64,000 bases of DNA from Apostichopus japonicus (Eukaryota > Echinodermata > Holothuroidea > Aspidochirotida > Stichopodidae). Made by a program: the position numbers and the translations under genes. The stretch lies in assembly GCF_037975245.1 (NCBI RefSeq), contig NC_092579.1, positions 20,158,666 through 20,222,665 on the forward strand, given 5' to 3'. The notes under the pieces were generated by a model. It worked only from the letters and a program-made list of their open reading frames with translations, did not search any database and was not told the DNA's origin. Positions 11,265 to 59,762 of this stretch are shown here, in pieces (the first letter of the stretch is position 1; every line of letters starts with the position of its first letter).

Positions 11265-11290
11265 AATATGTTTAGGTCGAGCCGAAACCC

Positions 11291-15606: not shown

Positions 15607-15717
15607 GTTACTATGCTAACACTCCTAGTGAACACTCCTAGTTATACACTAGGCCTATAAAACACACTCTTAGTTACACACTATAGCTAACACTCCTAGT
15701 TACACACTATATAATTC
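15597..15717. repeat. 26-bp minisatellite downstream of receptor C
   Basis: About five imperfect copies of the same unit, adjoining the stop codon of receptor C. Confidence 0.7.
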
Positions 15718-17055
15718 TCAAGTGCCTACAGAGTTAATACCAACGCGACTACAGCGCTTCAATTTTGTACGAAATTGTGGGTTTGAAAGGCAATAAATAA
15801 CGGGATTAATGAAATGACCGAGTGTGGGAGAATTTCGTAGAAAATGGAATGCAAACGATCCTAGAAACGTATGAATATTATTGATAAAATCCCCGTAGGC
15901 TACCAAACATGTTATAACAAAAACTGGTGCCCATATTAATACAAATGCTATCATAGTGACTGAGAGCATGAATGTGATCCTTCCAGGGATGGGCTTGACA
16001 ACAAAACTAGACTTGTATCTACTCGATCTGGTGGGTAGGCTTAGTGAGTCACGTTCACTCGTACGTGTAGACGGTGCAGTAACCGGGACGGCAGGTGGGC
16101 TTGTAACAGTTCCGCCACACGACGAGCCAGTTTTGGTTGCTTCCGAATGTTGTCTTCCCGGGCTTGGCAAGGCAGAAGGTTGACTGGATGAATGTCGTTG
16201 ACAGTGAAGGAAGATGCGGTTATCCGATAGCGCCATATTCAGCGCGGTCCTCGGACAGTCAGGTCCAACTAAGTGGACTAGTTGGACCGCTGTGGTAGGT
16301 TCACTTTGGAGTGACAAGTAGGTGTCGTCAGTGGTTACCCTTGATGAAACAACGTTAACTTTGTCGACTCCAGGCAGATATTCTTTTCTCCGGGCGGCGC
16401 ATTCCGAATGCAGTCCGCCGACACCTCTGCGGGAAGAGTTTTGACGACGGGACAATTGCATCAGGTATCTGTGACGTCGTAGTTTCCGTAGCAAGGCGCA
16501 ATGGAGCACAAATATAATGGCACATGACGATATAAAAAGAAACAGTTGCGACCCTACAACCATGGCGTACAGGAACTTGGCGCCGCCGACCTCCGCTGTC
16601 ACCGCACAAATCTTTGAACCGTTGGTGCTCTGTGTCCCGAAGAACAGCATAGTGAATGATGCTAAGACCAAAGAAATCATGAAACTCACCCACGTAGCTT
16701 TTTCCACCGATTTTGGCCTTAACAAATACTTCTTAGGTCGACATACAGCGATATACCGATCGATAGCAATGAAGAGGGTTAAAAATAAGGACATAAAGTT
16801 CCCCCAAACTGTCAAAAGAGAATACAATTTACAACTTACGTCGGTGACAACGTCCGGTATCAAGAAAACGACTCCTAGTGAGGTTACTAGGCACGAACAC
16901 AAGTCAAATATCCCTAAATACCGAATCAAAAGTTTCGGAGCAGATTCGGCTGGGTTTCTTTTAAACACTTTAATAACCGCGATGTTGCCCGGTATACCGA
17001 CCGTTACAGCGAGAATGCTATAAGCAAGAATGACGGTAGCCCTCACAGGTGACAT
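15718..17055 (-). CDS. Class A (rhodopsin-like) orphan GPCR, copy C
   Basis: Intronless 445-residue paralogue with all class A landmarks (GN in TM1, DRYIAVCR, FVLIWAP, NPVIY). Copy-specific substitutions are scattered, for example NSPTLGHF before NPVIY where A has KSPNLGHF. Many changes fall in the long third intracellular loop. The open frame just upstream (to 17,299) is offset from the receptor frame, supporting the MSPV Met as start. No inactivating change is seen. Confidence 0.9.
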   Translation of the reverse strand: MSPVRATVILAYSILAVTVGIPGNIAVIKVFKRNPAESAPKLLIRYLGIFDLCSCLVTSLGVVFLIPDVVTDVSCKLYSLLTVWGNFMSLFLTLFIAIDRYIAVCRPKKYLLRPKSVEKATWVSFMISLVLASFTMLFFGTQSTNGSKICAVTAEVGGAKFLYAMVVGSQLFLFISSCAIIFVLHCALLRKLRRHRYLMQLSRRQNSSRRGVGGLHSECAARRKEYLPGVDKVNVVSSRVTTDDTYLSLQSEPTTAVQLVHLVGPDCPRTALNMALSDNRIFLHCQRHSSSQPSALPSPGRQHSEATKTGSSCGGTVTSPPAVPVTAPSTRTSERDSLSLPTRSSRYKSSFVVKPIPGRITFMLSVTMIAFVLIWAPVFVITCLVAYGDFINNIHTFLGSFAFHFLRNSPTLGHFINPVIYCLSNPQFRTKLKRCSRVGINSVGT

Positions 17056-17085
17056 AATATGTTTAGGTCGAGCCAAAACCCGGAG

Positions 17086-17110
17086 AGTATATAAACAAAA
17101 AAGTCACGTG
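17086..17110 (-). promoter_or_regulatory. TATA-like box and E-box upstream of receptor C
   Basis: The TTTATATAC element and CACGTG E-box (17,105-17,110) lie at the same positions relative to the ATG as in A and B. The region farther upstream has a deletion in a t/a-rich tract compared with A. Confidence 0.35.
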
Positions 17111-17751
17111 GGAGATTAAATTGCTGATTAAATTATTATTGAAGAGCTGACTCTGAGATATTTGTACAGAAAAGTCTTTGCAAATGGACAATTCAACAAT
17201 TTCTTTTCTGGAAGCCGTCAATTCTCGAAATAATATGGTATATACAGTACCGCGGTTATAATATGTCACGTTTCTGCACGATGTACATATCGCAGTCACT
17301 GCAAAGCTGGATTAGAATTTATGCACGGCTCTGAGCCAATCAGCGAAAACTCGTTCACACCAATTTTTAGTAGATCATAAGCCGTGTCATTACTAGATAA
17401 TTAGCCGTGTCATAGAAAGTTCTCAGTTAAAACAGGAAACATTTTGACCTTGAAGCAGTGGTCAGTAGTTACGTATTTGTCAAGATAGGAAATTATAATC
17501 ACGATAATAATAAATACATGCTATGAATAATAAATCAAATGATCCAGAACACAGTGGCATAAGAATATTATACCAGTGGGATTTCTCCATGTTCCAAACA
17601 TACGTACTGCCCATTTCTGATTGCAATTAAACATTAATAATAGTTAGAAATGAAAAGGTTTCCGGGATGTTAACACATAAATAAATTCGGGTGACATCGA
17701 GGTTGCCTGGGACTGAGACAAACGCCAAAAATTTACTTTATTTTGTCCATA

Positions 17752-26967: not shown

Positions 26968-29900
26968 CTGCAGACGGAACAGAAAAAGAAACGCACCGTG
27001 TGAATATTTTGAAGAGAAACAAACAATTTTTGGAGATACGTCGTGCCTCGGGCCAGTCCCCGTTAAGTTTTTTTTATGTAGAAAAACAAAACTTCTTTTC
27101 GGAAGGTATCCTTGAGGTGTGCTCCCTTCTACTATGAGAGGCGACTCAATTAGGAATACTAACCCGAAGGAACAAAGCATCAGTCTTTTAAGGTTTTTCA
27201 TAGCAATGTGTCTCAATTTTTCTTTTTATTATGTGATTATGTAATCGTGTATAATAAAACCATCTCACACGATGCTAATTAATCGTTATCATGGGAACAG
27301 GTCTTACGAAAATTCAAAGGAAAATCTTGGTGGGTATTCTAATATTTGAGCTACTTAATTTTATCTTTCCAGGTCGTGGGGGAGGGAGGGAGGGGGGCCC
27401 AGCGTAGTATGTAACAGTGTGATTGTGCAAACAAAAAGAAATTTTTATTTTTAAAGAAAATAATGGAAAACAAAACAACAAAACATCAAGTTGGTATCAA
27501 GAACAGTACAATAAATTAAGAGTGTGATACATGAAATTAGTAGATGAATTAGTTTTTGAGATATCAGTTTAGTCATGGCTAGTACTGTTAATCATACATA
27601 CTTAAACCAGATTCTCTCTATTTTCTCCTGAGTCTGCCCGGTTTTGCTCTCTGATTTCCTTTGCAAGCGACGTGGGTTTGGCAAGCCTGGTCCTGTTGAC
27701 CACGGGGTATGGGCACCCAGGGGCGGGGAAGCCTATCGTTCTTATGGGATGGAGTGGACATGCTAGCCTGACAGGAGTTAGCAGAGGCTGACACATGCAC
27801 GCTGGAGGAGCCTAGGGAAGGGAGAAAGAAAAGGGTGCAGGAAAGAGACGACAAACAAGAAAGATGAAGAAGAAATAGAAGACGAGACGTCGTGCAAAAA
27901 AGTAGAAGTTATACAAGCAGGCATGTGTAAGAACAAAAACAAGGGTAACAGATATACATGTGTGACACTACGATGAGGAAAATGGCGACACCTTCTAGGA
28001 GACCGTAAAAAAAAAAAAAAAAAATCACCTAAGTCATAAATGGGGATGGAGTAACTTAAAGCTAGGAAATTAATCAGTGCTTACAAATATATTTGCATAG
28101 TGCTCAATATTGGGGTCTTTTAACCGAATTTTAATTGTCATGAATTTTGTGAAAATTAGCTTAAGCTCTTTATGAAAAGAAAAAAAATTGCTTATTAAAA
28201 ATACGCTTTGCATTTTTAATTTAGAAAGTTGAGCATTTTTTTTTAAAGTAGCATTTTCACTATGCCTAGTAACAAGATAATAAACATGATTGGTCATCAA
28301 GTTTTTCTGACCTGTAATCACATTTTGATAAAACTGCCAGAACCATGTATTCACTTGTTGAAAAAACGTTGGCCTATTGTTGATGAGACCAGACTGCACA
28401 CATGGCATAGTTTTGAAAATAATTTGCCACCCCCCACCTAAAAAAAAAAAGGATTGAGGGACTCTGGCAGAAAAATGGAGACTTTCAAAACTTGAAAAAA
28501 GCCACCATTCTGAAATGAGAGCCCTTCTTTGTGAAATGAGTGAATGGATTAATTGGCGAATGACTACATGTGCATACAATGACAGGAGAAATGAGGAAGG
28601 AATTACTGAAGGATATACCTTGACATATCAAGTGCACCATGGATGACACTGGGTGCAGTAATGGAAGAATATGAACATTTAAAATAGATGAAAGAATGAC
28701 CGGGGTGATGGATATACATACATATAGTACACACAATCATGCATGAAGGATACTTTATACATTAACAAAACACACAATGACAAATACGAGATGAACATGA
28801 ATTCAATATGGACAAACTGGATGGACGGTAGGCATGTTGGTTACCGGTGATCTCGTTGCAAAACAAGAGACAACAATGGGCAAAAGGGAGCTGATATGTT
28901 TGGGGAGGGGTAGGAAGAGGGAGGTGAAGGTATTTTATCCTCGAAATGTACATTTTTGTATTATTCTCATATTTTAACTTGGCCAAATGTCAGCGATTTA
29001 TCTGTTTATAACGTAAAGGAATCATTGAGGTCATGTTTCAGCGAGGACTCTCTCTGAGAAAGTGTGTGTCTGTGAACTTGTTTGCATTCTGACTGAGAGG
29101 GGAGGGGATGGAAGAGGTAAGAGGAAGGTAAAGGTATTTTATCCTCAAAATGTACATTTTTGTTTTATTCTCATATAGCAACTTGGTCAAATTTCAGCGA
29201 TTTATCTGTTTATAATGTAAAGGAATCATTGAGGTCATGTTTCAGCGAGGACTCTCTCTGAGAAAGTGTGTGTCTGTGAACTTGTTTGTATTCCGACTGA
29301 GAGGGGAGGGGAAGGAAGAGGGAGGTAAAGGTATTTTATCCTCAAAATATACATTTTTGTTTTATTCTCTTAAATTAACTTGGTCAAATTTCAGCAATTT
29401 ATCTGTTTATAATGTAAAGGAATCATCAAAGGGTGTGAAGACTTGCACAAACAGAAACGTCTAATGCCGGTAATCTGACCTAGTTTCGAATGAGGTGTAA
29501 CAGAAGTGTTAGACACCACCATCGATCCCAGAAAATACACACACACAGCTTGCTACCATCGGTAATTAGACACTAGTGTACAGTCAGTACATACAGCTGC
29601 GGTCAATACCCACAGCACAGTGTATAAACGATACAGCGATGGACATCTCAGGTCCAGCTAAAGATAACAATTAAGGTATCACGTTTCATTACTGTCTGCA
29701 TATTGTAGCGACACGTACAAAACATCACTTGCAAGCAACAGAAAGTAAACTTTTTCAGAGGGCCGCACGCGGTTTGGGGCGAGTCTTCAATGCCTTTAAG
29801 GTCATGTTTCAGCAAGGAATCTCTCTGAGAAAGTGTGCGCCGGTAAACTTGTTTGTATTCCGACTGAGGACTTGAACAGAGGATCACCACGACCTCAGTG

Positions 29901-44900: not shown

Positions 44901-47900
44901 TCTAAATGTTATCGTGACAAGCACTGGAGAGAAGTTCTATATTCTAAGAACAGTAAACTTGAGTTATTACCAGCACAATTCCTCTGCAGATCTCTTCAGT
45001 TAGCTGCAAGGGTCCTTTTTTTTCAAATGTTCAAGAACTCAAAACAACGAGATACTGGCTCTCTACTAATTCGTACCCATAAACATCACTACTTAGGAAA
45101 GCCATCTGGACACATGCAAACACTCGCAACTTTTTGTTTCCTTTCCATTACAGCAGCTATTTGAATTAATTTGCTTTATTTCTCCCATCAAATACGCTTG
45201 CAACAGAAAGCTGTAGCTTGTGTTATCTACTTTTCCAAAAAGGCTGAGGAATATAACTTAGGGGCTGCTGAACTTACCTATCCCTAGATGTGTGTTGATG
45301 CTTGCATATCTGGCTGTTCCCGTTAGATTCTTGTTTTCCCTGTAAGGTATGTGTTGCTGTGTCCGGGGGTCCCGATACTTCTTGGCTAAACCAAAGTCTA
45401 TGATGTACACCAAATTGCCCTTCTTACCAAGGCCCATGAGAAAGTTGTCCGGTTTGATGTCCCGATGGATAAAATTTTTGTTGTGTACATATTCTATTCT
45501 ACTGATCTGGAAGAGAAAAATGATTCAAGATATTTCGATAAGAAAATCAAAAATATCATTTCAGTCAGTCTTAAAGCTGCATGCTACAATGAACTGGCTA
45601 TACCGTAGTTTGGTAGTACCATAGTTCATCATAAAAAAAAAAATTTAAATTTTTTTTAAAATAATAATTAAAAAAGAATAATAAAAAAAAACGAGGAAAA
45701 AACAAGGGGGGGGGGGATAGTGCATTTAAGTGGACAAAGTGGACTGAAGACAGGTACTGTAGGTAAGAGAGGTAGGATGTACACACATACTGCACAATGT
45801 GTTACTTTTGTTCTTCAAAATAGTACCACTGTGCACCATTTTACAAATATCATCACGTTGTTTCCAACCTAGATGTAATAATTACTCTCCTTTGGTTTTC
45901 TCTTCTTCAACAGTAAAACTCAATTAAGGACAATGCTCATTATCAACACCCAAGTGGTTTAATATTCTTTGCTAAGGAACTGAGTCAGCAAGGTCATCAA
46001 AATTGATTTTATCTTTGCTATAATCACTTGTAATCTAAAAAAAAAAAGTAACTTGCTGTGTTTCCTCAAAGACTTGCAGCAATAGGCAGCTGCTGTCAAA
46101 GAATTTGTGATTTGATAATTTACAACAAAAAAACATGAGTAAATAATATTACTATTTTGGACATAAAATGATGTCAGGCCTAGAAGCGCATAACTTTTGT
46201 TGTGGGCCTTCTTGCTAAAATAACATTAAATACGAAGGAGCAGGGGTGTGGGTAGGGGGTAACAGGGAGGTAAAGTTTAAAAATCTTGCAATTTAACATC
46301 TAGTCTGACAAAACCGACAACAGTTTATCTCCAGGTATTAAACATACAGCAATTAGTCACTTGAAATTTGGCAATATGTTTATCTCCCTTTGTACACATC
46401 ATCATCAGTTTTATTATTGTTAAACTTAACAGTAGATGTTAAAAAGAAATATCACTTTATTTTCATGCCAAGGGTAAGTCTCTTAGTCGGAAAAAATGCA
46501 TGAATCACAAACAAACCAAAAATTGATGATTTCTACTCAGAGATACAGTATTGGTAAATTATGTACTATAGTATGAAGGCATAACATTTACAAGTTACAA
46601 AATTTACCAAAGCTTCCTTGAAAATGTACTATTTGGGTATAACATGATGGATTTAACATAATGCAGTTTTCATTCAATGTCATTGTACCTGACCCTCAAA
46701 GACAAAAGGTCACATATAAATTGGTTCATTATCTGTTTTGCTATCTCTTTGGAATATATATGAGGTTTCTATTTCTACAGTAAAATGGAGCACAGTGCTT
46801 CCTGCTACAATTTTTAACTTTAGTGAGTCTAAAGTGCACCTACATACAATCACGCACGCCTATATCTAGTGTATGTACACAGCGTTCACACCCAGCATCT
46901 TGATGACGAAACTGCGAGATGCTATTATGACTACAAGTTGGGAAACACCCTCTACTCAGGTATTGATCTGTGTTTACCAGTTTGTCTACACTGCCATTAT
47001 AATGGCACTGTATTTAACTTACCTTACAGTTACATTATGTTTTAATGATATTGATCAAGCTGAAGGGGAAATTCCAAAACTTACTGGTTTGGATATTTAC
47101 GAGTGACGAGCTTACCTGTCTCCTCACAACCTTAGCACCTCATTCTACCGTGCCTATAAAGTCCTGGTAAATAAATAACACTGTGCGCCCTCTATGACCG
47201 GACCCCCCTTCCGGTCCCTCCTCCTTTCTCATGAGACCATTCCTGAAGAGTGGCCTCACGGACGCGGGAGTGGGGGTGGCAAGGACTGGCCACCCCCAAC
47301 GACCCCCGTCGAGTTAACTTCCCAAAGTGAACCCCTAACAAAAAATTCACTGAGGCCTTCCTAGCAGGGGGGAGTGTAACCCTCCCCGGCGCAGCGGGAA
47401 GGGGGGACACTCTCCTGAACCCTGCAGGCGGAACTACCCCTTACACTAACAAGGAGCCTAAAGATTTACGGTCCGCCACTTGTTACCCTTAGACCAACTT
47501 AGGTGAGAACGTAAGTGGAAGACTATGTACGCAAACGCATACGGAAACACATAGGTACACTCACCGATAGACATAGTTGATGGCTCTCTGGTGGATGGTG
47601 GTTCTGTCTATCTGGTGTGAAGCTCGGAGTCGTGAGTCAAGTCGAGCGACCGCTCCTCCGTCCGGCTGTGTCCCACCACCCTCTCGGGGGAGGGAGGCGG
47701 GAATGGAGACAGGTAAGCTCGTCACTCGTAAATATCCAAACCAGTAAGTTTTGGAATATTTACTTCGCTCCTCGCTTACCTGTCTCCTCACAACCTTAGC
47801 ACCGAGTGGCACTGCCCGATGGTGGGAGGCCCGAGGGGTGGGACCTGTTACCCACCGGACCTCGCATCACCGCGCTACCAAATGCCGCTTCGGCGTGTAA

Positions 47901-50900
47901 AGTGTCGGTCAAGTAGCAGGCGACGAACGTAGTTGGAGTTTTCCACGCTGCTGCTTTGAGTATGTCCTCTATCGGGATGCCGGCGAATAGGGCTGTAGAG
48001 GCCGCGACCCCTCTGACGTCGTGAGCCCTTGGTCGGGAGGTCCCCGATGTGAACGGGCGTATGATCTCTACTAGCCACCTGGATAGAGTGTCTTTGGAGG
48101 CCGCTGCGTAGGGTGGTCGTGGTATGATGAAGAGAGAAGTTGATTGTCTTAACTTCTCTGTCTTGCTCAGGTACCACTTCAGTGCCCTGACTGGACACCA
48201 TCGTTTGTCCTCGGCTACTGATGACATGGTCTTAATTTCCGGGATGAAAATGTCTCCTGGCAGGAAGGTCAAGGTCTGGTTCTTTGCCATAAATGACGGG
48301 TCTGGAACCATCCTCACCCCGTGGCCCTCAAATCTGATGTGATTCTGCTTGGTGGATAGGGCGTGGAGGCAACTCCTCCTTCTTGCTGACGCCACTGCGA
48401 TGAGGAAGAGTGTCTTTTTTGTGAGGGCAGCCAGGGAGGCGTTAGCCATTGGTTCGTATGGTGGTCCTGCCAGGGCATGTAACACTGCTGAGAGTCCCCA
48501 GGAGGGGGCTAGCCGTCTGATCTGTGGGTGACGATTCGCCATGCCTTTGATGAGCTGTGCAATGTACGGGTTATTGCTCAGTGTGGAGCCATCTGGGAAG
48601 CCCTGGTGGATGGCAGCGATGGCCGACCTGTAATTCCTGATGGTGGAGACTTGTTTCCCCTCTCCAAAGAGTGAGAGGAGGAACTCGGCTGTGTCACAGA
48701 GGCAGCAGGCAGCAGTATCTGTCTCGGTCGGCACCATTGGTCGAACTTCCGCAGACAGGAATCGTAAGTCGCTGCGGTCGTTCCCCTTCTAGCGTCGGCT
48801 GCCATCGCGGCAGCTGCTTCTGAAAAGCCTCTCTGTCGTAGGAAGACCGGACAGCCTCCAGGCAACTAATTGTAACCCCTTGATGTCTGGGTGGGAGAGA
48901 GTTCCCTGTCTCTGGGACAGTAGGAGAGGCTTGTCCGGTAGACTCACTGGGACGTCCATGAGGAGTTGGGGGATCTCGGCGAACCAGGGTCTGCGAGGCC
49001 AGAACGGGGCTATTAGTGTGAACCTGCCCTTGGAGTTCCGAATTTTCCTGAGGACTTGTCCGATCATACACAGCGGCGGGAAGATGTACGCATCCATGTG
49101 GTCCCAGGAGAGGGACATTGCGTCCGTGTGGTAGGCCAGGGGGTGGAATCGTCTGGAACAGAAGGTCTGGAGTTTGTTGTTCTTGTGTGTTGCGAACAGG
49201 TCTATCGTGGGCCTGCCGAAGATCGAAAAGATTCTGTCGTAAGTCTCCTGTTCCAGAGACCATTCGTTGGGGTCTATATGCCCCCTGGATAAGGCGTCCG
49301 CCATCACGTTGAGCTTGCCTGCGATGTGGGAAGCCCGTAGGATCGTGCCGGAGTCCTCGGCCGCTGTTATCACCTCCCACGCGAGTCGGCACAGTCTCTC
49401 TGAGCGGGTGCCCCCTGCCGATTGATGTAGGCCACCACTGTCGCGTTGTCGGTGAAGATTGTGGTTATCGTTCCCTGTACGTGGTCGTTGAAAACTTCCA
49501 GGGCTCTTTTGACCGCCATCATCTCCAGGATGTTGATGTGGAGAGATCTTTCTGTTTGGGACCACGTCCCCCATGCTGTGCGATTGCTCCAATGAGCTCC
49601 CCATCCGGACAGTGACGCGTCCGTCGTTATCGATGTCATTGGTAGCTGTATCGCAAAGGGTACCCCTGAACTCCAGTTGTTTGGGTCGAGCCACCATCGA
49701 AAATGTTGGGTGACCTCCTCTGACCTGTAGATGAGCGTTGTTTTGTCTGGGTCTGTAGGGTCTGCGGACCTCAGCAGGTGCAGTTGCAGAGGTCGCATGT
49801 GTAGCCTGCACAGTCTCACTATATCGACGAGGCTGGCCATGAGTCCCAGGGCCCGGAGCCATGTCCCCGTTGGTGATCCCCGGTGTGCCAAGATCTGTTG
49901 TGTGGTCGCCTTGACTGCCGCGACTCTTTCTTCTGAGGGTCGGGCTACCCCGGTGGTGAAGTCCAGTATGGCCCCGAGGAACTGGATCGTCTGGGAAGGT
50001 GATAGCCGTGATTTCTTCTGGTTCACGATCCAGCCCAGTTCTTGAAGGGTCTGGAGCGTTTTGTGGACGTTGTTGGTTGCTTCCGATAGGCTGTTCCCTA
50101 CTACCAACCAGTCGTCTAGATATGCGTAGAGGGTGACCCCTCTTTTTCTGAGGTAGGCGACTACTGCTCCCGCGACTCTCGTGAAGGTTCTGGGAGCCGT
50201 GGCTAGGCCGAATGGGAGCGCCCGGAACTGGTAGTCTTGTTCTGCGTACCGGAACGCTAGGAATCGTCGGTGTTCTCTGTGTATCAAGATGTGCAGGTAG
50301 GCGTCCCGTAAGTCTACGGTCGCCGCCCACATGCCCTTTCTGAGTAGGGGTAATATTAAGTTTAAGGTCTCCATACGGAAGTGTTTTGGTCTGATGTGTT
50401 TTGTGTTCAGGGGTTTTAGGTTTAGAATGGGACGCCAGGTGCCGTCCCGTTTTTTGGTCAGAAAAAAGGAGGACCGGAAGAGTGGTCCCGTCTCTTCCGG
50501 AACTCTTGTAATTGCCTGCTTGGCCAGCAGGGCCAGAATTTCCCCTTCTAGGGCTAAGCGTTTGACGGGGTCCGTGGGTGTGAGTGTCTGCCTTCCTCCG
50601 CCCCCGAAGGGTGGGCTGGAGGAGAATTCTATTTTGTACCCGTGTCTGACTGTGTCCAACACCCACTTGTCCCCGCCAATAAATTCCCATTGCTGGGAGA
50701 AGTTTGTTAGTCTCCCCCCCACCGGCGGAATGGCCGCGGTGAGGTGGGCACCCCTAGGGCTGGGCGGCGAACGCTGGTCGAGTGGAGGAGCGGTCACTGT
50801 CCCGTCTGGTCGACGACGAGCCTCTGCCTCCTCTGGGGGCCCAGGGGCGGGTCGGACGGAAGGCTGCCCCCCGGCTTCTGCCTCTGAGAGCTCCTCTGCT

Positions 50901-53900
50901 CATAGATTTGGCGGGTGCTGCTCTCGTTCCCCTAGGTGCTCTGCTCTCCCTCGGGCGGAAGGGTCTGGTTCTCTGGGTCGGTGGGGTTCGGAATTCTGAT
51001 TTGGCCAGAGTCTCCCTTCGGGCCACCTCTTCCTGCAGTTTCTTTTGGAAGCAGCCCACAAAAAGGTCTTCCCCGAGGATTGGTAGTTCCAGCATTCTGT
51101 CCTTCGCCTCCGTCGAAGGCCAATGGATGGCGGAGACGATGTTTTGTCTACGGGCCTTTACGGACCTGGTAGCGACCCTTGCAAATTGATCGTACGCGAG
51201 CCTGACGAGGGGGCCCAGCAGCAGGAGGAGCTGGCCCGCTTCGTCCCTGGATACTTGGCTGCTGTCCTCAGGGAGCTGTTGATGGTGTCGCATGAGGACT
51301 TCAGCTGATAGCATTAGTACCGATGCGAACTTCATGCCCGAACGGGCTGCCATGTCCATCTCTACCAAAAGCTCTTCTAGCTTCCTCTGGTCCGGGGTCT
51401 TGAACACGTGTGTGGATGAGGCCCCTTGTTCGGCTTTTAATCTCTCCTTGGCCTCCTGGGGGATGGTTGGGCATCTAAATAGATCCTTCCAGGCCTCGTC
51501 AGGTACCCTGACCGCTCTATCTGCCCTGGCCGGGAAGGCCGTCCACTTGGTCTTGTTGGCAATGGCCTCAAATCTGTCATAACAGGTTGCGTCTACTGGT
51601 ATGGTAGTTTTGGGCTTATATGACGCTTCGCCGGTCGCCGTCAATTTTGATACCCGGCCCGCCTTCTGCGGTTGCGTCTCGGGTTCCTCGAACCCCAGGT
51701 GTCGTCTGAATATGTCTGCCGCCCGTGTTATTAGCTCCTGTGGGAGGGCTCCTCCTGTCGCGGGCGCTTCCTCCGGTTCGTAATTGTGGCCAAAGCTGTC
51801 CTCTATAGGATCGTAGTCGAGAGGATCTGAATCTATGGGCTCCCCTTCGTCCTCCAAGCCGGAAAGATTCACCGACGCTCTGCAATCCAGAGCGTCCGGG
51901 TCCGGGGCCGGTTGCGGGGCCATGGTCGATACGGGGCTGGTAGGGCCCGGTGCCACGTCGGCTACCGTGGACGTCCTTTGCTCCAGCAGGGGCCGTAGCA
52001 GGCCGGTGAGTTTGGATAGCCAAGCTGGTTCCTCTTCCTGACGCCGTCTCGGGGACCGGCGCCTCCTCTTGGATCTTCTGTATCCATCGTCGGAAGAGTC
52101 CGAGGACTCGTCGGAGATTGGAGAGTATCTCTTCCTCTCTCTCCGTCTTGGGGATCTTGTATGCGACCCCGATCTCTCCCTTCTGGGTCGGCGGGAGGAC
52201 TCTCTCTCCCTACTTTCTCGGGCCGGGATCTCCGTCGGAACCCGCCTCTCTGGCTCCCTGTCCGGCTCCCTGGAACGGGACCGGCTCCGTCTCCGCGTCC
52301 CCTCGGTTGCTCTCTCTTTTGGACCCGAGCCTCCCACGGCCGGAGGGCCGCGCTCTGTGGGTCTGTGTAGCTGCGGCCCGGACTGAGACGGAGTCTCCAG
52401 CCCGGCCGAGCTGTGCCTCTGCTTTGGAGGTCTTTTCTTGGCAGGAGCCTTGCCTTTGCTCCTGCCCTTCCCTCTGGCCGTAACTGATCCGGACGTAGCC
52501 GGGGCCGTTAGGGGAATTCTTTCTCTTTCTCTTTCCTCTCTCTCTACCTCTTTCTCTCCTTCGGCCCTCTCATGGCCACTCTCCTCCACCTCTCTCTCTA
52601 CTACTCCCTCCTCCTCTCTATCTCCCGTTATTCCTGGAACCTCCGGCGCCCCGATTGCGCTCGGGATCGAGTCCAGCCTTCCCTGGAGCTTGCTACGTAA
52701 GCCCTCAAGCCACAGGTCGATGTCCTGCCACTGAGCTGGTGTAAACTTAATACACACCAGGCAGGGGTCTCGTCGAGTGCAGGATCTGCATTTTGGACAA
52801 AGGTCGTGCTCGTCCCAGGCTCTGCCTGGGCGAAACATAGAGCAGTTGATGCACTTCAATGGATTGCGTGACATGCTGAATAACCGGATTAAGGAAGATT
52901 ACTTCTTAGTGATAAATGAACAACAATAGAAGCTTAACGTAAGAAGGGAGAACTAGGGAGGGAATTATGCTTAGGTGGAGCGTAGCGTAACCTAGCAACG
53001 GTAAACAAGGTAACGCTACGGGGTGGCCTAACGAGAAAATGGAAGCTGAAACGAAAATGAGAGAGCGAGAAATACATACAAAAAGGAGTGAATATACGTG
53101 AGCAATATGAATCCCCAAAAGGGGGACGAGAGAAACTAATTGGGGGGAAGAAGCTAGTAAACAAGCTAAGAAAACACAATAACAACAACACGCTTTAGCG
53201 TGGGGAGGAATAGGGCGGGAACCTAGGCAGTTTCGCGGAACTGCTAACCCCGCCGCAAACCAACCCGAGGAGGAAACGCACTACGAAAACAGTCCCCAAA
53301 ACCCTCCCTTTTGACAAAAAGGATACTTATCGGTCAGGAAAGGACTGTCAAACTTCTAAAGATCCGAAGCTAAAAAACTTCCGGCGATCGTCGAAGAAAA
53401 CCAAGACAATTTTCCAAGGAAACTATCCACAAGAAAAATATGCGTGTAGGCACTTGGAATGGTAGAATGAAAAAGGAGGAGGGACCGGAAGGGGGGTCCG
53501 GTCATAGAGGGCGCACAGTGTTATTTATTTACCAGGACTTTATAGGCACGGTAGAATGAGGTGCTAAGGTTGTGAGGAGACAGGTAAGCGAGGAGCGAAG
53601 TAAATACCACCTTGATCAGTGAATATACAGTATGTCCAACATTACAAGTTGTTTGTAATTGCCAAGTTTTTTCCATTTACTAACTCACAAAGAATTGTCA
53701 TCCAACCCAATAGTGTCTATTCAGGATGTAGTCATTATTTGTTCATTTAAGAACATGTGAGACACTTTGGAATGGTAGAATATGAAGGAGTTCACTAGGG
53801 GGTCAGTAAGGGTGCACAGTGTTAAAAGGTTACCAGGGCATACTAGACACGGTAGAATGCAGTGCTTAGGTTGTGGGGAACGAAGTAAATGATTGTGTTG

Positions 53901-54964
53901 TTAATAATTCTTGGTAAGTTTATTATTATGGTCAAACTTGAGGGAAAAATACCTACCCAGATACGGAAGTGTGGTTTAACCAATTTGTTGGGACTTAGTT
54001 CTGTATCTGGATTCACAACATGCATTTGATTTGAACACATAAGCAAGGGTTTTGCCTGCCACACTAATTAACATAAAACTAAAACAGTTCCTTCTTTCAT
54101 CGCCTTTTGAATAAAAAAAAATAAAAAAACAATTGTGCCAAATTTTTCTTCGATACGCAATGTCAGTAAATCTTTCCTTCTCATTAAAATACCGAGAGCA
54201 AACGCCAGAGGACAACCCTTTTGTCAAGTACGGGATGACAAACTAATGAAGCAGCAGTTGAAAGATAACCGAGGCTACCCAAGGGAACAAACCCCAAGTT
54301 GTGGTATCCTGGTTATTTCTGTGAAGCGCTACCGGTGATATAGCTGTCAAAGAGGGGGCGCCACGTCAAGAAAGGCATACCCATTACCACCGATACTTGG
54401 ACTTCATCCAAGGTTCATTAGGGAGTACAGCAAATTACTAGCACTCAGCATATATATCTCTGTATTACTATGCAGACAATAATGATGGAGTATATATTCA
54501 GCATGTTATTAGACATTATATTGCTAGACTGTCGCCGGTAGTTTTGGTTCATTTTATTCGATACAAAATATCGACATTGATGAGGAGTACCCTTGGCGAC
54601 GTCTACATTACTATCTCATATAATACGTACAGTGTAAGTGGGACACAGTACATTTAAGAAGGACTGGACATACCATCTTTAAGTCGAAAGCACAGATAAA
54701 ACACCAAAATGCAAAGCAGAGAGGGAAAAAAAACGAGCAATGACCGGGATGATAAGGGTTAAAGGTTATTTGCAAAAGCAATATTCAGAAAACTGCAAAA
54801 TTTGGACATACTTACCAATTGATCTGCTAAAAGCAAGACAGTCTTGAGACTGAATTTTCTCGTACAAAAATTAAAAAGATCTTCTAAACTTGGCCCCAAA
54901 AGCTCCATTACCATGACGTTATAGTCTCCCTCTGCACCGCACCATTTGACTGTTGGTATACCAA
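26732..54964 (-). CDS. CSNK1D/E-like: Casein kinase 1 delta/epsilon-class gene, visible exons (5' exons outside window)
   Basis: Ser/Thr kinase of the CK1 family; relatives act in Wnt signalling, DNA repair and circadian PER phosphorylation. Exons on the minus strand are 54,816-54,964, 45,278-45,506, 36,396-36,566, 34,902-35,050 and 33,693-33,873, then a terminal exon at 27,618-27,811 or 26,732-26,967. All joins use GT...AG and keep the reading frame. [11 protein letters not shown] and the CK1 signature SINTHLG are intact. The Arg matching the hamster tau site (TARYAS) and the Lys of the second anion site (KQKYE) are present. The tail has a STTRAL block like vertebrate CK1 epsilon. The start Met and ATP-loop exons are not seen and must lie beyond 64,000. 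Confidence 0.92.
27618..27811 (-). CDS. CK1 possible alternative terminal exon, tail version 2
   Basis: A strong pyrimidine tract and acceptor (ctttctcccttccctag) precede a frame that also continues the upstream exon (split codon G|GC). It would give about 63 residues, Ser/Gln/Arg-rich with a [10 protein letters not shown] segment, ending in TAG. The block is GC-richer than its surroundings. It lies between the STTRAL exon and the RLHRG exon, so use of it would replace the conserved tail. Known CK1 delta isoforms also differ by alternative last exons. Transcript support is unknown. Confidence 0.4.
27812..33692 (-). other. CK1 intron
   Basis: Intronic sequence with no further exon recognised. 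It holds a 200-bp tandem repeat array (28,903-29,430), a TG tract near 30,003, G-tracts near 30,370 and 30,900, and poly-A/poly-T runs. Reading through the donor at 33,692 would add about a dozen residues before a stop, which is only relevant if the intron is retained. Confidence 0.6.
28903..29430. repeat. About 200-bp tandem repeat, 2.6 copies
   Basis: The block tatcctcaaaatgtac..gcgatttatctgtttataa..gaggtcatgtttcagcgagg recurs with a period of about 204 then 197 bases; the landmark is at 28,993, 29,197 and 29,394. A separate 75-bp fragment of the same unit lies at 29,797-29,870. The fragments include a gaggggagggg purine run. Confidence 0.85.
33693..33873 (-). CDS. CK1 exon: start of C-terminal tail
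   Basis: Encodes the beginning of the regulatory tail: [15 protein letters not shown], then SSTTRAL and a Gly-rich stretch, comparable to the DRERRE...ATRAL region of CK1 epsilon. The acceptor is gcagcag, a NAGNAG tandem site, so the exon may begin at 33,873 (adding Gln) or 33,870. The donor is GGTG|gtaagt. Confidence 0.88.
34902..35050 (-). CDS. CK1 exon: end of kinase C-lobe
   Basis: Encodes [34 protein letters not shown] and VFDWNMLKF, the end of the CK1 catalytic domain. Acceptor tttgtag, donor TTT|gtaagt. Compared with vertebrates, NFCRSLRFDD is replaced by [10 protein letters not shown] and GFSYDY by GFFYDY. Confidence 0.95.
35714..35873. mobile_element. Short MITE sharing the TIR of the 59.8-kb foldback element
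   Basis: Its right 98 bases match 60,236-60,333 (landmarks ataggaattgaatgcaaat and gacctggactattctttt). The left end reads as an imperfect inverted copy (aaagaattgtactggtcaaa). About 160 bp in all, non-coding, in a CK1 intron. Confidence 0.65.
36396..36566 (-). CDS. CK1 exon: [10 protein letters not shown] region
   Basis: Encodes [41 protein letters not shown] and [12 protein letters not shown]. The Lys in KQKYE corresponds to Lys224 of vertebrate CK1 delta/epsilon, an anion-binding residue. Acceptor tctgcag; donor GCGT|gtaagt. Confidence 0.95.
36567..45277 (-). other. CK1 intron, 8.7 kb
   Basis: AT-rich intron with G/A tracts (37,704; 38,200; 38,975) and many ctgtac/gtacag words. No exon is recognised on the minus strand. 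One plus-strand open frame at 43,925-44,173 is listed separately. Confidence 0.6.
43925..44173 (+). CDS. Unrecognised 82-residue open frame inside a CK1 intron
   Basis: Begins at an ATG with a favourable context (aaacATGG). It encodes a mixed hydrophilic protein with a Leu-rich middle, an acidic EEEEEN run and a basic RKVKRS segment before a terminal IIWW. The frame has ordinary amino-acid composition and is GC-richer than flanking intron, but the opposite strand is open too and no family is recognised. It may be an exon relic, a small nested gene or chance. Confidence 0.2.
   Translation: MAQHPTDNILKAWRVHELSRNPADRAIRFTASLLLCHRSLTFNLREQFLRESKVEEEEENSGRQDPSLVTSLRKVKRSIIWW
45278..45506 (-). CDS. 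CK1 exon: catalytic loop and DFG
   Basis: Encodes [54 protein letters not shown] and [15 protein letters not shown]. It carries the catalytic Asp in HRD, the DFG metal-binding Asp and the CK1-specific SIN motif in place of APE. The Arg in TARYAS matches Arg178, the residue changed in the hamster tau clock mutant. Acceptor ctcttccag; donor ATAG|gtaagt. Confidence 0.96.
47110..47227. repeat. DIRS left inverted terminal repeat
   Basis: 118 bp, exactly the reverse complement of 53,472-53,589. The element extends 39 bp farther out (47,071-47,109), a part represented only in the internal complementary region. Confidence 0.92.
47705..47803. repeat. DIRS internal complementary region
   Basis: 47,705-47,757 is the reverse complement of the left end (47,071-47,123). 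47,757-47,803 is the reverse complement of the right end (53,560-53,606). Together they equal the junction of a circularised element, the hallmark template used to complete DIRS ends. The region overlaps the recombinase stop codon. Confidence 0.9.
47796..48865 (-). CDS. DIRS tyrosine recombinase (frameshifted)
   Basis: The core frame (47,796-48,737) holds the tyrosine-recombinase residues: an Arg cluster SARRRS near residue 119, HDVR near 239-242, a Trp near 265 and the nucleophilic Tyr in FVACYL near 275. The N-terminal core-binding segment ([20 protein letters not shown], then [13 protein letters not shown]) is in another frame that ends within the core. The two must join near 48,690-48,705, so a small indel breaks the gene. 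It would integrate the circular DNA copy in the nucleus. ORF start near 48,865 overlaps the end of ORF2. Confidence 0.85.
48789..49415 (-). CDS. DIRS ORF2, RNase H end and methyltransferase-like domain
   Basis: Continues the RT/RNase H frame after a one-base shift. Recognisable parts are [13 protein letters not shown] (end of RNase H) and then [31 protein letters not shown] and [12 protein letters not shown], the region described in DIRS elements as DNA N6-adenine-methyltransferase-like. The upstream half of this long open frame (49,416-50,690) is only a shadow of the RT frame. Confidence 0.8.
   Translation of the reverse strand, partial: GGTRSERLCRLAWEVITAAEDSGTILRASHIAGKLNVMADALSRGHIDPNEWSLEQETYDRIFSIFGRPTIDLFATHKNNKLQTFCSRRFHPLAYHTDAMSLSWDHMDAYIFPPLCMIGQVLRKIRNSKGRFTLIAPFWPRRPWFAEIPQLLMDVPVSLPDKPLLLSQRQGTLSHPDIKGLQLVAWRLSGLPTTERLFRSSCRDGSRR
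49370..50797 (-). CDS. DIRS ORF2, reverse transcriptase and RNase H
   Basis: The RT domain spans about residues 80-290: DLRDAYLHI (first catalytic Asp near 162), [13 protein letters not shown], and YLDD at 226-229. RNase H follows with [23 protein letters not shown] and TDNATVVAY. The frame then runs out 20 codons after a five-base G run (49,411-49,415 on the plus strand as C5). The correct continuation is in the next frame, so one G is missing or a -1 frameshift occurs there. It overlaps the end of the gag frame by 44 bases. Confidence 0.9.
   Translation of the reverse strand: MTAPPLDQRSPPSPRGAHLTAAIPPVGGRLTNFSQQWEFIGGDKWVLDTVRHGYKIEFSSSPPFGGGGRQTLTPTDPVKRLALEGEILALLAKQAITRVPEETGPLFRSSFFLTKKRDGTWRPILNLKPLNTKHIRPKHFRMETLNLILPLLRKGMWAATVDLRDAYLHILIHREHRRFLAFRYAEQDYQFRALPFGLATAPRTFTRVAGAVVAYLRKRGVTLYAYLDDWLVVGNSLSEATNNVHKTLQTLQELGWIVNQKKSRLSPSQTIQFLGAILDFTTGVARPSEERVAAVKATTQQILAHRGSPTGTWLRALGLMASLVDIVRLCRLHMRPLQLHLLRSADPTDPDKTTLIYRSEEVTQHFRWWLDPNNWSSGVPFAIQLPMTSITTDASLSGWGAHWSNRTAWGTWSQTERSLHINILEMMAVKRALEVFNDHVQGTITTIFTDNATVVAYINRQGAPAQRDCADSRGR
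50754..52874 (-). CDS. DIRS gag-like protein
   Basis: 706 residues. The N terminus is Cys-rich with CINC, CPKC and CLVC pairs, suggesting a zinc-binding fold. It is followed by a highly charged Glu/Arg/Ser region with RS dipeptides and an alpha-helical central domain (about residues 430-600). The Arg/Gly/Ser-rich C terminus suits nucleic-acid binding. It is the first frame of the element and full-length, with no break seen. Structural role inferred from position. Confidence 0.85.
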   Translation of the reverse strand: MSRNPLKCINCSMFRPGRAWDEHDLCPKCRSCTRRDPCLVCIKFTPAQWQDIDLWLEGLRSKLQGRLDSIPSAIGAPEVPGITGDREEEGVVEREVEESGHERAEGEKEVEREERERERIPLTAPATSGSVTARGKGRSKGKAPAKKRPPKQRHSSAGLETPSQSGPQLHRPTERGPPAVGGSGPKERATEGTRRRSRSRSREPDREPERRVPTEIPARESRERESSRRPRRERSGSHTRSPRRRERKRYSPISDESSDSSDDGYRRSKRRRRSPRRRQEEEPAWLSKLTGLLRPLLEQRTSTVADVAPGPTSPVSTMAPQPAPDPDALDCRASVNLSGLEDEGEPIDSDPLDYDPIEDSFGHNYEPEEAPATGGALPQELITRAADIFRRHLGFEEPETQPQKAGRVSKLTATGEASYKPKTTIPVDATCYDRFEAIANKTKWTAFPARADRAVRVPDEAWKDLFRCPTIPQEAKERLKAEQGASSTHVFKTPDQRKLEELLVEMDMAARSGMKFASVLMLSAEVLMRHHQQLPEDSSQVSRDEAGQLLLLLGPLVRLAYDQFARVATRSVKARRQNIVSAIHWPSTEAKDRMLELPILGEDLFVGCFQKKLQEEVARRETLAKSEFRTPPTQRTRPFRPRESRAPRGTRAAPAKSMSRGALRGRSRGAAFRPTRPWAPRGGRGSSSTRRDSDRSSTRPAFAAQP
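53472..53589. repeat. DIRS right inverted terminal repeat
   Basis: 118 bp, identical to the left repeat in inverted orientation. The element continues to 53,606 with a part copied in the internal complementary region. Confidence 0.92.
53763..53893. repeat. Diverged DIRS end (relic)
   Basis: About 130 bp resembling the right end of the intact element in the same orientation: tggaatggtagaat, gtgcacagtgtta, accagg, acggtagaatg, gtgcttaggttgtg and gaacgaagtaaat occur in the same order. It differs by many substitutions and indels. It lies only 160 bp outside the intact element. Confidence 0.7.
53894..54815 (-). other. CK1 intron segment, no gene seen
   Basis: AT-rich intron between the DIRS relic and the GIPT exon. 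Nothing is recognised on either strand. Confidence 0.6.
54816..54964 (-). CDS. CK1 exon: [15 protein letters not shown] region
   Basis: Encodes [32 protein letters not shown] and [14 protein letters not shown], the hinge and helix D/E region of CK1 delta/epsilon. Acceptor ttttatcag, donor ATTG|gtaagt. It is the most upstream exon found, and the next codon is split with an exon outside the window. Confidence 0.96.
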
Positions 54965-57900
54965 CTGATAAAATAAACAAGAGAAAAGACAAGATAAACC
55001 TTATATATATATATGTATTGAAGTTAAATCTATTATAAAGTGGTCCTGATTGAAATCTATAGAAAAAACAGTACTTAATACTACTGGGGAAAGTGGGATG
55101 GGGGAAAGGGGCTATGGAAGGAAGGGGTGGAGAAGTGGGAAGGTGGATAGGAAAGGATGATGGGATGCAGATTTCATCACAAAAGAATAAAAGTACTGTC
55201 AGGACTGTAAGAGGAAAGAACTACCTGAAAAAAACACTGTCTTTCTTACACTCTTCAAACTTGCATCACAAATGATGAAATTAACAGGCCTGCATAAACT
55301 TGAAAGGTTTGCAGCAGGTGGTAAAATTAATATGCTTTTATATACATAAGTTGTGGGACCCAATCATTTTCTGTACTGGATTAAACTGATTAATAATAAC
55401 ATACAGCAGCAACCGTTCAGAGCAATAAAAGTTGTATTTAACCATGTCACAGATCTCCTCTTCCTTACCAAAATGTTGTGTACAATTTTGTGTACAAATG
55501 TGTACAGTATGAATACGAAATGGCTTAATTGGACAGAACCACACAAAGTTTCAAATCAATGTAAACTTGAAACTTAAAAGTGATAAGTGCCTGGCAATGT
55601 AGAATTATGTTGTGAACTACTACTAATTCCCTCAAGTCAAACAATATACCAAGTGAGCAGTGATACAGTACTATATATCCCTTTTCATCACCAGCTATAT
55701 AGAAATCCAAGATAACACTTGACTTGTAAGTATATATCAATCAATTTTAATATCTAGCAATATATTAACTGAGGAGCTTTTCTATCATGTTACCCCTGAG
55801 AGGAAGTGCCATCCTCTGACAAGCTGTCAAATCTGTTATTCGATACTTTACATACTGTAAATACAAGTGTACATACAAGTGTACATACATACATACATAC
55901 ATACATACATACATACATACATACATACATACATACATACATACATACATACATACATACATACATACATACATACATACATACAAAGAATGTACTATGA
56001 CCCTTAACAACAGTCAGGCTATGGAAACTACAAGGTAAAAGGATGTTGGTTTCAGTCTTGTTAATTGCAGGTTGATGTCTTTTAACATGTCCCATGAAAT
56101 GACTCATACCTGTGCTTACACAATTTGTGAACAGAGTTACACGCCTTAGTCTGTCTCCTAGGTTACTGAAGCAGCAATGTACTGTATACACATGCCAATA
56201 GTGCTTGAACACATGTACACAATCGAGGAACACTGTGGCATTTCAGCCAGAATCACTGTGGAAATCTTTTGCGCAATTCCAAGGAATTTCACAAAGTTTT
56301 GGGAAATGAAAGAAATTTTGGAATACGTACAAACAGTGGTTAGATCGAGGATGTAAGCACAACCAAAATAAAATATATATTGTATGAAAAATTCAAAAGT
56401 CCTTAATTAAAGTGAATGGAAAAGACAGACAGACAGACAGACAAAGTCACCTATTGTTCAACATGTGAAAATTAGCTGACTAGTGAATGTCCTCAGCCCC
56501 AACCCATGGATAACATGCACTTGAACTTTTACTGGATACTAGATATTTCCTTTCATTGAAAACATATAAAGTTTAAACATATTGATTCCCAGTACTTTAC
56601 TGGTCTGGTAATTTATGAGCTTAAATACTTACCTGCCTTCAATCTACCCATCTACTTTCTTCACCTAACCTACTAAATTTGAAATGTTTTAGTTGCCGTC
56701 CAAACTCTTCCCCCTCCCCCCCCCCAAAAAAAAAACTCACGCCCAGTCCTGACTCTCCACTCTCTAACTTAGTTCCTGGTCTACCCCTTCAGAACATCTC
56801 TTAAATTATAAATAAGCTTACTGAAGTTATTTTGCATTCCCTTCATTTCCAGATTCTACCAAACCTCTTCTGATTAAACTTCATCCTTTCATAAAAATCT
56901 ACCTATATTGTATGATGAGAACTCATCATCATATCGCTAGAATTCCTGTAACACACATTCTACAAAACACTGCTAATTTATGCACTCTCTGTTAAATCTA
57001 CTGTACATCAATATCATCCAGCATCCAAAAATGGTACATATATACACATCAAATTTGTGTTGATTTTGTGGATCACTGGAGGCACAGGTATTGCAAGGGT
57101 CTTACCAATTGTTTGTAAGCAAGATACAGTAGATCAGAGTATGTATGCATGCTGTATGAAGGAAATCCCCTGATTCGAATCGCTACAGTAATTCTTCCAT
57201 CAAAACCTTAATACTAAGATGGATGAGTGAGATTTATGCTTTATTTCAATGTGAGTGTGACTACTACATACATGGGCTTACCCTGGAACTATTTATGTCA
57301 GCATTACAAAGAGAGAAGGGAAACTTAATAGCCAAATATATGTGGGTGGGTAAAAGTCTCTTAGCCAATATATACACCCGAGTCAATAACAACTGGGTCC
57401 CACTGAACAATAGCCTATTGTCTTTCTGTTTGTCTTAGGTGGTCAACAAGTTCTGTTGCTAACCAATGGGTATTGTATTTGCTGGTACAATAACTGTTGG
57501 ATACTTGCATTGAGTTCAGCAACCAGTAATTTGTACCACAAGCACATGTGCTGCAATGCACACTTTGCAAATGACGTCACAATCATTAACCTATATATGT
57601 ATGTAGAAAATTTGTATTTTTTGTGTCAAATCAACAGCAAAAACCCCAACACTGCTGCTCTGTCAATCAATGATATGAAAGTTACGCTAATGTTCAACAA
57701 CCCTGGCCATCTCTCCACACCCCCCCCCCACTCACCGCATCCCTCCCCCCTCAACAACCTCAATCTCAAACCCAAAAGCTATATCACCAATGGTGCTGGC
57801 ATTTGTATATACTATACTCTGGAAGATGGCTATGAACTGTGATATTACAGTAGATAAGAGGAAAGATAAGAGGAACTCCAGAGGACATCCAGAGGTTGTT

Positions 57901-58396
57901 AATAGAGCTACTACTATAATTTAAAAACATAACAGTACAAGCAGTTTTAAATCTACATATCTTTATATGAAAAAGGTAATTAGTAAATCACATGGAAGGC
58001 TCTTTGAGGTCAGGGTTGTATCCTCCTCAGCTTTTCTGTTCTGGTGTTGCTAATATACTATTTATATTGTTTTATAATTTCTAATACACTGATAAGATTT
58101 TATTGCATGTTGAACAATACAAAGTTCATATTTTCAAGTGAAACAATATCGTACTAACTATTGTGCCTGGCATAACAACTAAGTAATATTCCTGTCTTCA
58201 GGAATATACATAATAATACTGCAGCCACCACACACAGTCTCTTCATGCTCAGCATCAAATAAATTACTGTCCAAAACACAATTCCTTCCACCCATTATAA
58301 ATAAAACACACAGGAACTGAACTGAACTAAACAGTAGGGTGAAGGGTCAGATCATTGCAAATGCATACACTGTAGATGTAGGGTAGATTGTAGAAG
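54965..58396 (-). other. CK1 intron, left part of the upstream intron
   Basis: Intronic, AT-rich, with the CATA tract and a short (ACAG)n run near 56,425. No exon for the CK1 N lobe (HIESKFYK-type sequence) is found. A few open frames of 60-130 codons on the plus strand are unsupported. Confidence 0.55.
55882..55985. repeat. Tetranucleotide microsatellite (CATA)26
   Basis: 104 bp of uninterrupted tacatacataca. Two interrupted gtgtacata units precede it. Open frames across it are repeat artefacts. Confidence 0.98.
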
Positions 58397-58670
58397 ATAG
58401 TTCATTGTACTGTCCCACATTATAGTTAGATTTACTGATGAATTAAAGGGTGTGCCTGCAATCTACCAATCATCATCTCCAGGTGAAATCAATAGTTCAT
58501 TGTACTGTCCCAAATTATATGTGTAAAAGTAAGTGGGCCTGACATTTCGATCCTAGCAGGATCTTCTTCAGAGGCTGAATGACAAGTAGTTGACATAATT
58601 ATAGTTAGGTATACTGATGAATTAAAGGATGTGCCTTCAATCTACCAAGCATCCTCGCCTGTGAAATCAA
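58397..58670 (-). mobile_element. Retrozyme-like tandem repeat (179-bp unit)
   Basis: Two adjoining units share the flanks agttcattgtactgtccca, actgatgaattaaagg and gaaatcaata. The right unit (58,492-58,670) is complete at 179 bp and contains a hammerhead-like motif. The left unit (58,397-58,491) lacks 84 bp, including the ribozyme, apparently by deletion between two attata repeats. Small tandem repeats with type I hammerheads are the described form of animal retrozymes, non-autonomous retroelements that give circular RNAs. Flanking mobilising enzymes are not seen. Confidence 0.6.
58534..58577 (-). ncRNA. Hammerhead ribozyme-like motif (type I)
   Basis: Minus strand: stem I strand AGCCU, core CUGAAGA (58,565-58,571), one extra A, stem II GAUCC/GGAUC with a UGCUA loop, core GAAA, a two-base palindromic stem III in AUGU, then the cleavage triplet GUC (ending at 58,541). 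The returning stem I strand AGGC gives four base pairs. An extra A beside the core is known in a viroid hammerhead. The tiny stem III suggests it would work best as a dimer, which a tandem repeat provides. Confidence 0.62.
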
Positions 58671-59762
58671 TACATTAATGTACAAAATACAGTAGGACTA
58701 TTCCAAGTACACACATGTATATACTTCATATCACTCCCTGTGCAGCACTGAAAACTGTGCACTGCTAGAATTCTATGAAAATGAGTATATATAAAGATTG
58801 AAATATTCTGACAACCAAGAAGAAACCACATTGTGAAAGTCACTTTCACACACAAATTCATTTCTAAAAGTAATGATTAACATAATCATAATAAAAAAAT
58901 TAAAAATTCTCGGACCGGTGTAGTAATGTCGGATCTGTGTAGTAATTTCTCAACCGGGTAACAGCGATGATGGTTGGATACTGCTGTAACCGGGTGCTCG
59001 GTGCAAACAACGAGTGATATATATATCTTAACCTATAATTAATAGACACAAACTTCAGGGAAACATTAGATGAACGGTCCCATTATCGACACCACCCAAA
59101 CTATTTTCGTCAGCAACATCCAAATATTTCCAAAGTAACACTAACATATTGCCACACTTCCTGTACATCCCAAGGTTTTCGATGTGTCAGTAGGTATGTG
59201 CTGGTAGAGATAGGGTATAGTGTAACTGTAGGTCTTGGTCTTTTTTTGTACTCTATAGTACTGTATTTGTCACTTGCCAGGTAATGTTTTAGCAGCATCA
59301 AGTAATGTATGGAGGAGAGAGACCAAGCTGCCAGTATGTACAGTAGTAGTTGTGTCTACATACATGTACTAGTATACATGTAGACATGTATAGACACCCA
59401 TTCATTCAAGGGGACAAATGCATTTAGACAAGGAGAAGGACCTCAAATCAACATATTAGTTTCTTCTAAAATTGTGGTTTCTCTAAATAATTCAGTGGTT
59501 AAGGTCAGAAATTTGTGATGGCAAATTAAATGACAAGAAAACTTCATTTGACTACCTTAACAGGCATTACAACACAATACTGTATCTCTAGTCATACACT
59601 TCAAATTAAATCACCAAAAGCCATGAAAAACTATACACATTTGGCAGCAACTAGCTTTGCTAAATATAAAAATCCCCTCTCTCAAATTTTGCAAGTGTTA
59701 CTACACTGTTTGAAACAGCATGGCAACACCCAAATTCACTTATTGCATATCATTGCAAATTC
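58671..59762 (-). other. CK1 intron segment, no gene seen
   Basis: AT-rich intronic sequence with short palindromic words (acatgtactagtatacatgt near 59,361). No coding or RNA gene is recognised. Confidence 0.55.

Follow-up and report, generated by a model that had tools for sequence, protein, structure and literature searches.

A hammerhead-like motif in a kinase intron of Apostichopus japonicus and its probable origin from a truncated Penelope-like element

The hammerhead-like motif on the minus strand at 58571-58541 of the 64,000-nt stretch of Apostichopus japonicus DNA analysed here (the window) is almost certainly part of a transposon remnant: a Penelope-like element, most of its 5' part missing, was inserted into a 95-bp unit that is tandemly duplicated within a CK1-type kinase intron, and the resulting stub is most likely inert. 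The boundaries of the insert, a 7-bp duplication flanking it, its membership of a multicopy family, the link of that family to an element with reverse transcriptase (RT) and GIY-YIG domains, and two 3' ends were all observed directly. A transposon stub inside a local duplication mimics a 'ribozyme dimer', and the animal retrozyme claimed in an earlier note on this DNA is not supported.

Local tandem duplication and its insert

The repeat finder returned 62-nt copies at 58419-58480 and 58598-58659, spaced by 179 bp and 89% identical, and a 28-nt pair at 58397-58424 and 58492-58519, spaced by 95 bp and 96% identical; the difference between these spacings means that the second unit holds 84 extra bases. 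A script alignment of both units located the insert, 77 bp long, at 58520-58596, bordered on each side by AATTATA, and the register is accounted for exactly (95+77+7=179). Once the insert and a single AATTATA are removed, each unit measures 95 bp, and the two agree at 85 of 94 aligned positions; the neighbouring first unit shows the homologous site uninterrupted. The features of the locus are as follows.

58397-58491, no strand assigned: first 95-bp unit of the local tandem duplication (repeat pairs and script alignment)
58414-58429, within the first unit: paralogous empty site, CCCACATTATAGTTAG
58492-58670, no strand assigned: second 95-bp unit, interrupted (28 nt, the insert of 77, the duplicated 7, and 67 nt)
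58513-58519, no strand assigned: target-site duplication, copy 1, AATTATA
58520-58596, minus strand: 77-bp 5'-truncated 3' end (pseudo-LTR end) of a Penelope-like element (genomic copies and tandem RT/GIY-YIG element)
At 58520, minus strand: 3' end of the insert, TTTTACACA
58596-58589, minus strand: 5'-most 8 nt of the insert, ATGTCAAC, absent from the tandem element
58597-58603, no strand assigned: target-site duplication, copy 2, AATTATA

The locus had been described as a near-dimer of a 179-bp repeat, and the 62-nt copies do lie 179 bp apart, but they are not a dimer of ribozyme units, as the core lies wholly inside the 77-bp insert and occurs once for two repeat units. The retrozyme claim built on that description supposed a small non-autonomous tandem repeat of 179 bp, bearing type I hammerheads and spread by circular RNA. 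A real repeat in a 179-bp register with one hammerhead-like core is present, and, in the portion of PMC7229834 available to us, metazoan non-LTR retrozymes likewise have a type I hammerhead core in repeated animal DNA, with RNAs of ~170-400 nt arising from tandem repeats. The same portion describes retrozymes as dispersed tandem repeats with a hammerhead in the unit, whereas here the repeat has one locus, and a transposon stub sits in one unit of it, the unit proper being without the motif. A similarity search of the genome (671.6 Mb, 35 contigs) with 58370-58500 gave three matches, all in the window; such a search skips very common words and is alone no proof of rarity. A 32-place pattern taken from the 95-bp unit, with up to 3 mismatches allowed, had two matches in the genome, both at this locus, and none for the reversed control. 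Neither search thus found the additional genomic copies of the tandem unit that a retrozyme would have. Furthermore, a stable helix III is present in most invertebrate retrozyme hammerheads, according to the available part of PMC7761336, and there is none here, while the repeat family of the motif is that of a coding Penelope-like element, the motif lying in its spacers. At the level of genome copies, where no dispersed family with a hammerhead in each unit was found, the retrozyme was rejected, and we regard it as scarcely credible.

The parent element and its copies across the genome

The insert is a high-copy repeat (46 matches from the best 40 of 2067 candidates scored), and its genomic copies mostly align at query positions 17-86, equivalent to 58588-58519, where many of them start or stop. 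A broad core pattern matched the genome 2584 times, against 397 for the reversed control. The strict motif with one extra base had 1232 exact matches, and the same motif without that base had one, with zero for the reversed control in both cases; because of this imbalance, the extra base is a family trait and not damage in the window copy. Other genomic copies with a conserved core, on which the earlier proposal had partly depended, are therefore plentiful.

These copies lead to a coding element. In a 4.2-kb stretch read out of a tandem array on C20 (L188), a 949-aa stop-to-stop frame matched RVT_1 (E=6.7e-9) and GIY-YIG (E=3.2e-4; 21.4 bits, just below the Pfam cut-off of 22.6), and the motif lay in the spacers on both sides of this frame, 3252 bp apart, with one copy, at 3339-3309, preceding the open frame, which runs from 3246. 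The window insert could be aligned to the L188 spacers through TTTTACACA. As the motif occupies spacers around an RT + GIY-YIG frame, the insert is interpreted as the 5'-truncated pseudo-LTR end of a Penelope-like element, of which the window copy retains little beyond the last 70 nt. At a second locus (L029), about 265 nt separate the end of a frame from the motif downstream of it, and this frame has a GIY-YIG match of E=1.9e-4 and 22.1 bits (same cut-off); a third locus (L183) is organised likewise but scores lower for GIY-YIG (16.3 bits). A protein search of the genome with the endonuclease part gave 150 scored matches from 2006 first-look candidates; some of these fall within open frames of roughly 950 aa and within arrays with 3252-bp spacing. 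Inverted head-to-head pairs occur at L002/L026 (one place), L009 and L025. At G000:C20:31537899-31548994, three endonuclease matches are spaced by exactly 3252 bp, each in a 949-aa open frame, and are followed by a match on the opposite strand.

The marks of Penelope-like elements include RT + GIY-YIG, pseudo-LTRs, tandem or inverted copies, an optional tail and short duplications (PMC3846280 and PMC11167929, in the parts at hand). The family has RT and a C-terminal GIY-YIG in a single frame beside the terminal sequence (the window stub itself being without a coding part), tandem (L188) and inverted pseudo-LTRs, short target duplications (7 bp for the window copy), and two 3' ends, consistent with an optional tail. 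Among 62 distinct copies, drawn from 71 hits in 55 of 62 loci, 54 stop at query position 69 or 70. Of the copies that reach position 66 (n=58), a word search identifies the tail in 20, inspection by eye adds L045, and 37 have none; the tail ends mostly in a T-rich stretch about 45-60 nt on (20 of 22 tail-like rows, by eye). The two discrete 3' ends thus fall 21 nt and about 65-80 nt beyond the predicted cut. Since loci were picked for resembling the window copy or for having an intact core, a non-neutral sample for counts of copies and conservation, selection on the core cannot be shown from these numbers. For GAAATGTC, the comparison of subfamily structure with CpG decay had a mixed outcome (overlapping loci included).

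Target duplications were sought as sequence common to the 3' flank and the upstream DNA. At least 9 nt were shared in 19 of 36 short-ended copies, compared with 3 of 36 in the downstream control, although a local repeat might account for some of the long matches (L024, L044). Across the first 10 nt of the target, A+T amounts to 80%, the window having 60%. The window copy (L062) has an upstream match of 7 nt, shorter than its downstream control match of 9 nt, which is explained by the other repeat unit lying next to it downstream. Short-ended copies such as L011, L015, L020 and L041 have candidate target duplications 175-191 nt upstream of the motif stretch, which suggests a recurrent solo pseudo-LTR form of ~250 bp.

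Two described systems offer close parallels for the element. Like the endonuclease-containing Penelope elements of Adineta vaga, as given in the available portion of PMC3846280, the family has pseudo-LTRs, head-to-head inverted copies, an optional tail, short target duplications (8-10 bp in Adineta) and 5' truncation; the Adineta tail is 31 bp long, compared with about 45-60 nt here, and the word hammerhead is absent from the text of PMC3846280 on these elements as available to us. Like Poseidon of Anolis carolinensis (PAc), as described in the accessible sections of PMC11167929, it combines an RT + GIY-YIG frame with tandem units and a hammerhead at the unit junction, and its copies end 3' of the hammerhead in an AC-rich stretch and have AT-rich targets. 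According to the same sections, the PAc frame starts at stem II, the cut falls 26 bp into the frame, and copying begins 111-118 bp in; unlike PAc, the motif here is upstream of the open frame, and the 3' ends lie 21 and about 65-80 nt past the cut. Counted against the assignment to a Penelope-like element are the shortness of the window copy's own duplication (7 bp), the GIY-YIG scores that narrowly miss the Pfam cut-off (22.1 and 21.4 versus 22.6) or fall further short (16.3 in L183), the absence of the 8 nt ATGTCAAC at the 5' junction from the tandem element, and the length of the tail, about 45-60 nt as against 31 and 30-40 nt in the portions of PMC3846280 and PMC11167929 consulted. The junction sequence ATGTCAAC resembles part of an inverted head-to-head copy (L025).

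The stub may have arisen in steps. The element protein would nick AT-rich DNA, copying of the element RNA would start within the AC-rich tail that immediately follows the motif on its 3' side, and an early stop of copying would leave a stub with a short target duplication. The short 3' end, 21 nt past the predicted cut, implies that the inserted RNA was uncut at that site, and this fits the in vitro result for the Anolis element, whose main substrate was uncut RNA (PMC11167929, part available).

The hammerhead-like motif and its putative activity

On the minus strand, the core reads CTGAAGA (58571-58565), A, the stem-loop GATCCT/GCT/AGGATC, GAAA, T and GTC (58543-58541), enclosed by a stem I of GCCT/AGGC.

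58541-58571, minus strand: minimal type I hammerhead-like motif (CTGAAGA; GAAA, 58548-58545; T, 58544; GTC, 58543-58541)
58564, minus strand: extra A between A9 and stem II
58563-58558 with 58554-58549, minus strand: stem II, 6 bp
58572-58575, minus strand: 5' arm of stem I, GCCT (partner AGGC at 58540-58537; stem I is 4 bp)
After 58541, minus strand: predicted cut

Each element that had been reported from the sequence (CUGANGA, GAAA, GUC, and stems I and II) is indeed there at 58571-58541, and the extra A beside the core and the 4-bp stem I were also described correctly. All invariants of a type I hammerhead are present (C3UGANGA9, G12AA, and H17 with a putatively cleavable GUC). Stem II does not sit directly on A9/G12 (pair 10.1-11.1), as the extra A at 58564 intervenes, family-wide, and no intramolecular stem III appears in the fold, GAAA-T-GTC giving no loop. 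The pattern CTGANGA..GAAANGTC matched once in the 64-kb window, against 0.04 expected from shuffles, and folding was unremarkable (z of -1.58 for the 46-nt core and -0.58 for 85 nt). The covariance-model check proposed alongside the retrozyme came out negative: at the Rfam gathering threshold the whole window had zero matches of any kind, no hammerhead model was among the four Rfam matches in 58300-58750 (451 bp, E<=10), and the tandem element L188 had no Rfam match at E<=5. The four weak matches (U3, STnc220, RT-17 and snoZ279; E 0.22-9.4, all far below gathering) were set aside as chance. A plus-strand candidate for a second hammerhead, CTGATGA near 58437 together with GTGAAATC, was likewise rejected, having no convincing stem III or GUC partner by eye and no model match.

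Minimal type I hammerheads of Penelope-like elements were reportedly treated by Cervera and de la Pena in 2014 and by Lunse et al. in 2017. Such hammerheads, lacking helix III, occur in Penelope-like pseudo-LTRs (PMC7761336 and PMC7229834, in the portions available), and the present family resembles them in its CUGANGA/GAAA/GUC core, its stems I and II, the lack of helix III, its position in the pseudo-LTR of an RT + GIY-YIG element, and its tandem copies. The hammerhead resemblance is real, but of a known kind. A candidate difference from the published minimal forms is the base added between A9 and stem II, which is fixed in the present family (1232 versus 1). This fixed base beside the core may be the only candidate novelty of the family, whose activity is putative. 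A survey of core variants found low activity for an insertion after A6 and impaired cleavage for one near C3 (PMC3088659, part available).

A further explanation is that the likeness is fortuitous, the hairpin serving another step, such as template recognition by the element protein. The fixed extra A and the absence of stem III are compatible with this, as is the location of the motif in the end of the element, near where copies stop, and the flanking letters by themselves prove little, since CTGAAGA..CGAAACGTC was found in at least 120 viral stretches. Among these 120 stretches, a stem II of at least 3 bp occurred in 10, and a stem I pair in none of those 10; a second pattern scan of viral contigs gave four stretches (one sequence accounting for two), and by eye the two stems never occurred together. 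The co-occurrence of the invariants, both stems and a correctly placed GTC argues against coincidence, and, in the available part of PMC11167929, the same motif class does cleave in a related element, with C3G and G8C each abolishing cleavage of the PAc motif and the double change partly restoring it. We consider a fortuitous likeness improbable.

If the motif of the Penelope-like family is active, two routes can be envisaged. Two motifs separated by 3252 nt in one tandem RNA might pair as a dimer through an ACGU/ACGU stem III, or, alternatively, the element protein might assist the motif; either way, a unit-length RNA would be cut out. When the dimer stem III was forced, the predicted energies were -19.0 kcal/mol for the window copy (AUGU) and -23.3 kcal/mol for the genomic majority form, compared with -25.0 kcal/mol for two monomers of either, and the unforced dimer favoured another, non-hammerhead pairing (-32.8 kcal/mol), which weighs against easy dimer formation. 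That the family has an unusual hammerhead, in which an additional nucleotide separates stem II from the core and stem III is of the zero-loop kind, and that this hammerhead cuts only as a dimer of tandem units or when bound by the element protein, is put forward as a tentative suggestion, doubtful at present. If it were true, unit-length RNA would be released only from tandem arrays. The family, with its 1232 strict copies, tandem arrays and two 3' ends, is a large, clean set for studying minimal hammerheads in Penelope-like elements, and it also suits the question of whether an extra base flanking the core is tolerated.

The kinase gene context

The motif was said to lie on the transcribed strand of a CK1-type gene, in an intron, and this was confirmed by minus-strand kinase exon motifs on both sides of it.

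54777-54947, minus strand, approximate bounds: CK1-type kinase exon, 3' of the motif (57-aa piece without a Pfam match)

Kinase motifs were recognised on the minus strand at 54840-54869, 45300-45482, 36481 and 34965, with a Pfam Pkinase match on the next exon piece (45258-45476), and the motifs of the two preceding exons lie to the right of the window, at C19:20224874 and 20230440. As the flanking exon motifs lie at C19:20224874 and at 54.8-54.9 kb of the window, the intron that holds the hammerhead-like motif spans about 11 kb, and the motif has the same orientation as the gene. From its sequence, we take the kinase to be of the casein kinase 1 delta/epsilon type.

This position raises the question of a functional intronic ribozyme that would self-cleave the CK1 pre-mRNA and regulate the kinase, and the core nucleotides with stems I and II are indeed on the transcribed strand, in an intron. 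Set against it are the lack of an intramolecular stem III, the extra A after A9 and the negative Rfam result; no second motif was found in the window or in the next 19.7 kb rightward (L184, L185), leaving no dimer partner there, and the forced dimers are in any case predicted to be less stable than two monomers. The Anolis Penelope-like hammerhead, moreover, stays uncut without the element protein, in the portion of PMC11167929 available. Self-cleavage in the intron is unlikely because this is a lone copy without stem III, and regulation of the kinase by it seems to us very improbable; as a truncated Penelope-like stub, the motif is most likely silent in the CK1 pre-mRNA.

Other repeats were noted in and around this gene. 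The same intron holds a perfect (TACA)26 microsatellite (55882-55985). Another intron of the CK1 gene contains large overlapping retroelement frames on the minus strand (48789-52898), including a reverse transcriptase (RVT_1 E=5.7e-22) with an RNase H-like domain at 49373-50899, together with a 714-aa frame farther upstream that has no Pfam match; this retroelement is presumably DIRS-like. Short tandem repeat sets recur at intervals of about 7.9 kb and 5.8 kb (1945/9845/15662, 3662/11579/17367 and 4055/11993), which suggests that a larger segment has been duplicated at about 1945-17413 of the window and is present there two or three times. Finally, a 204-bp tandem repeat of 2.6 copies, with 89% matches, occupies 28902-29426.
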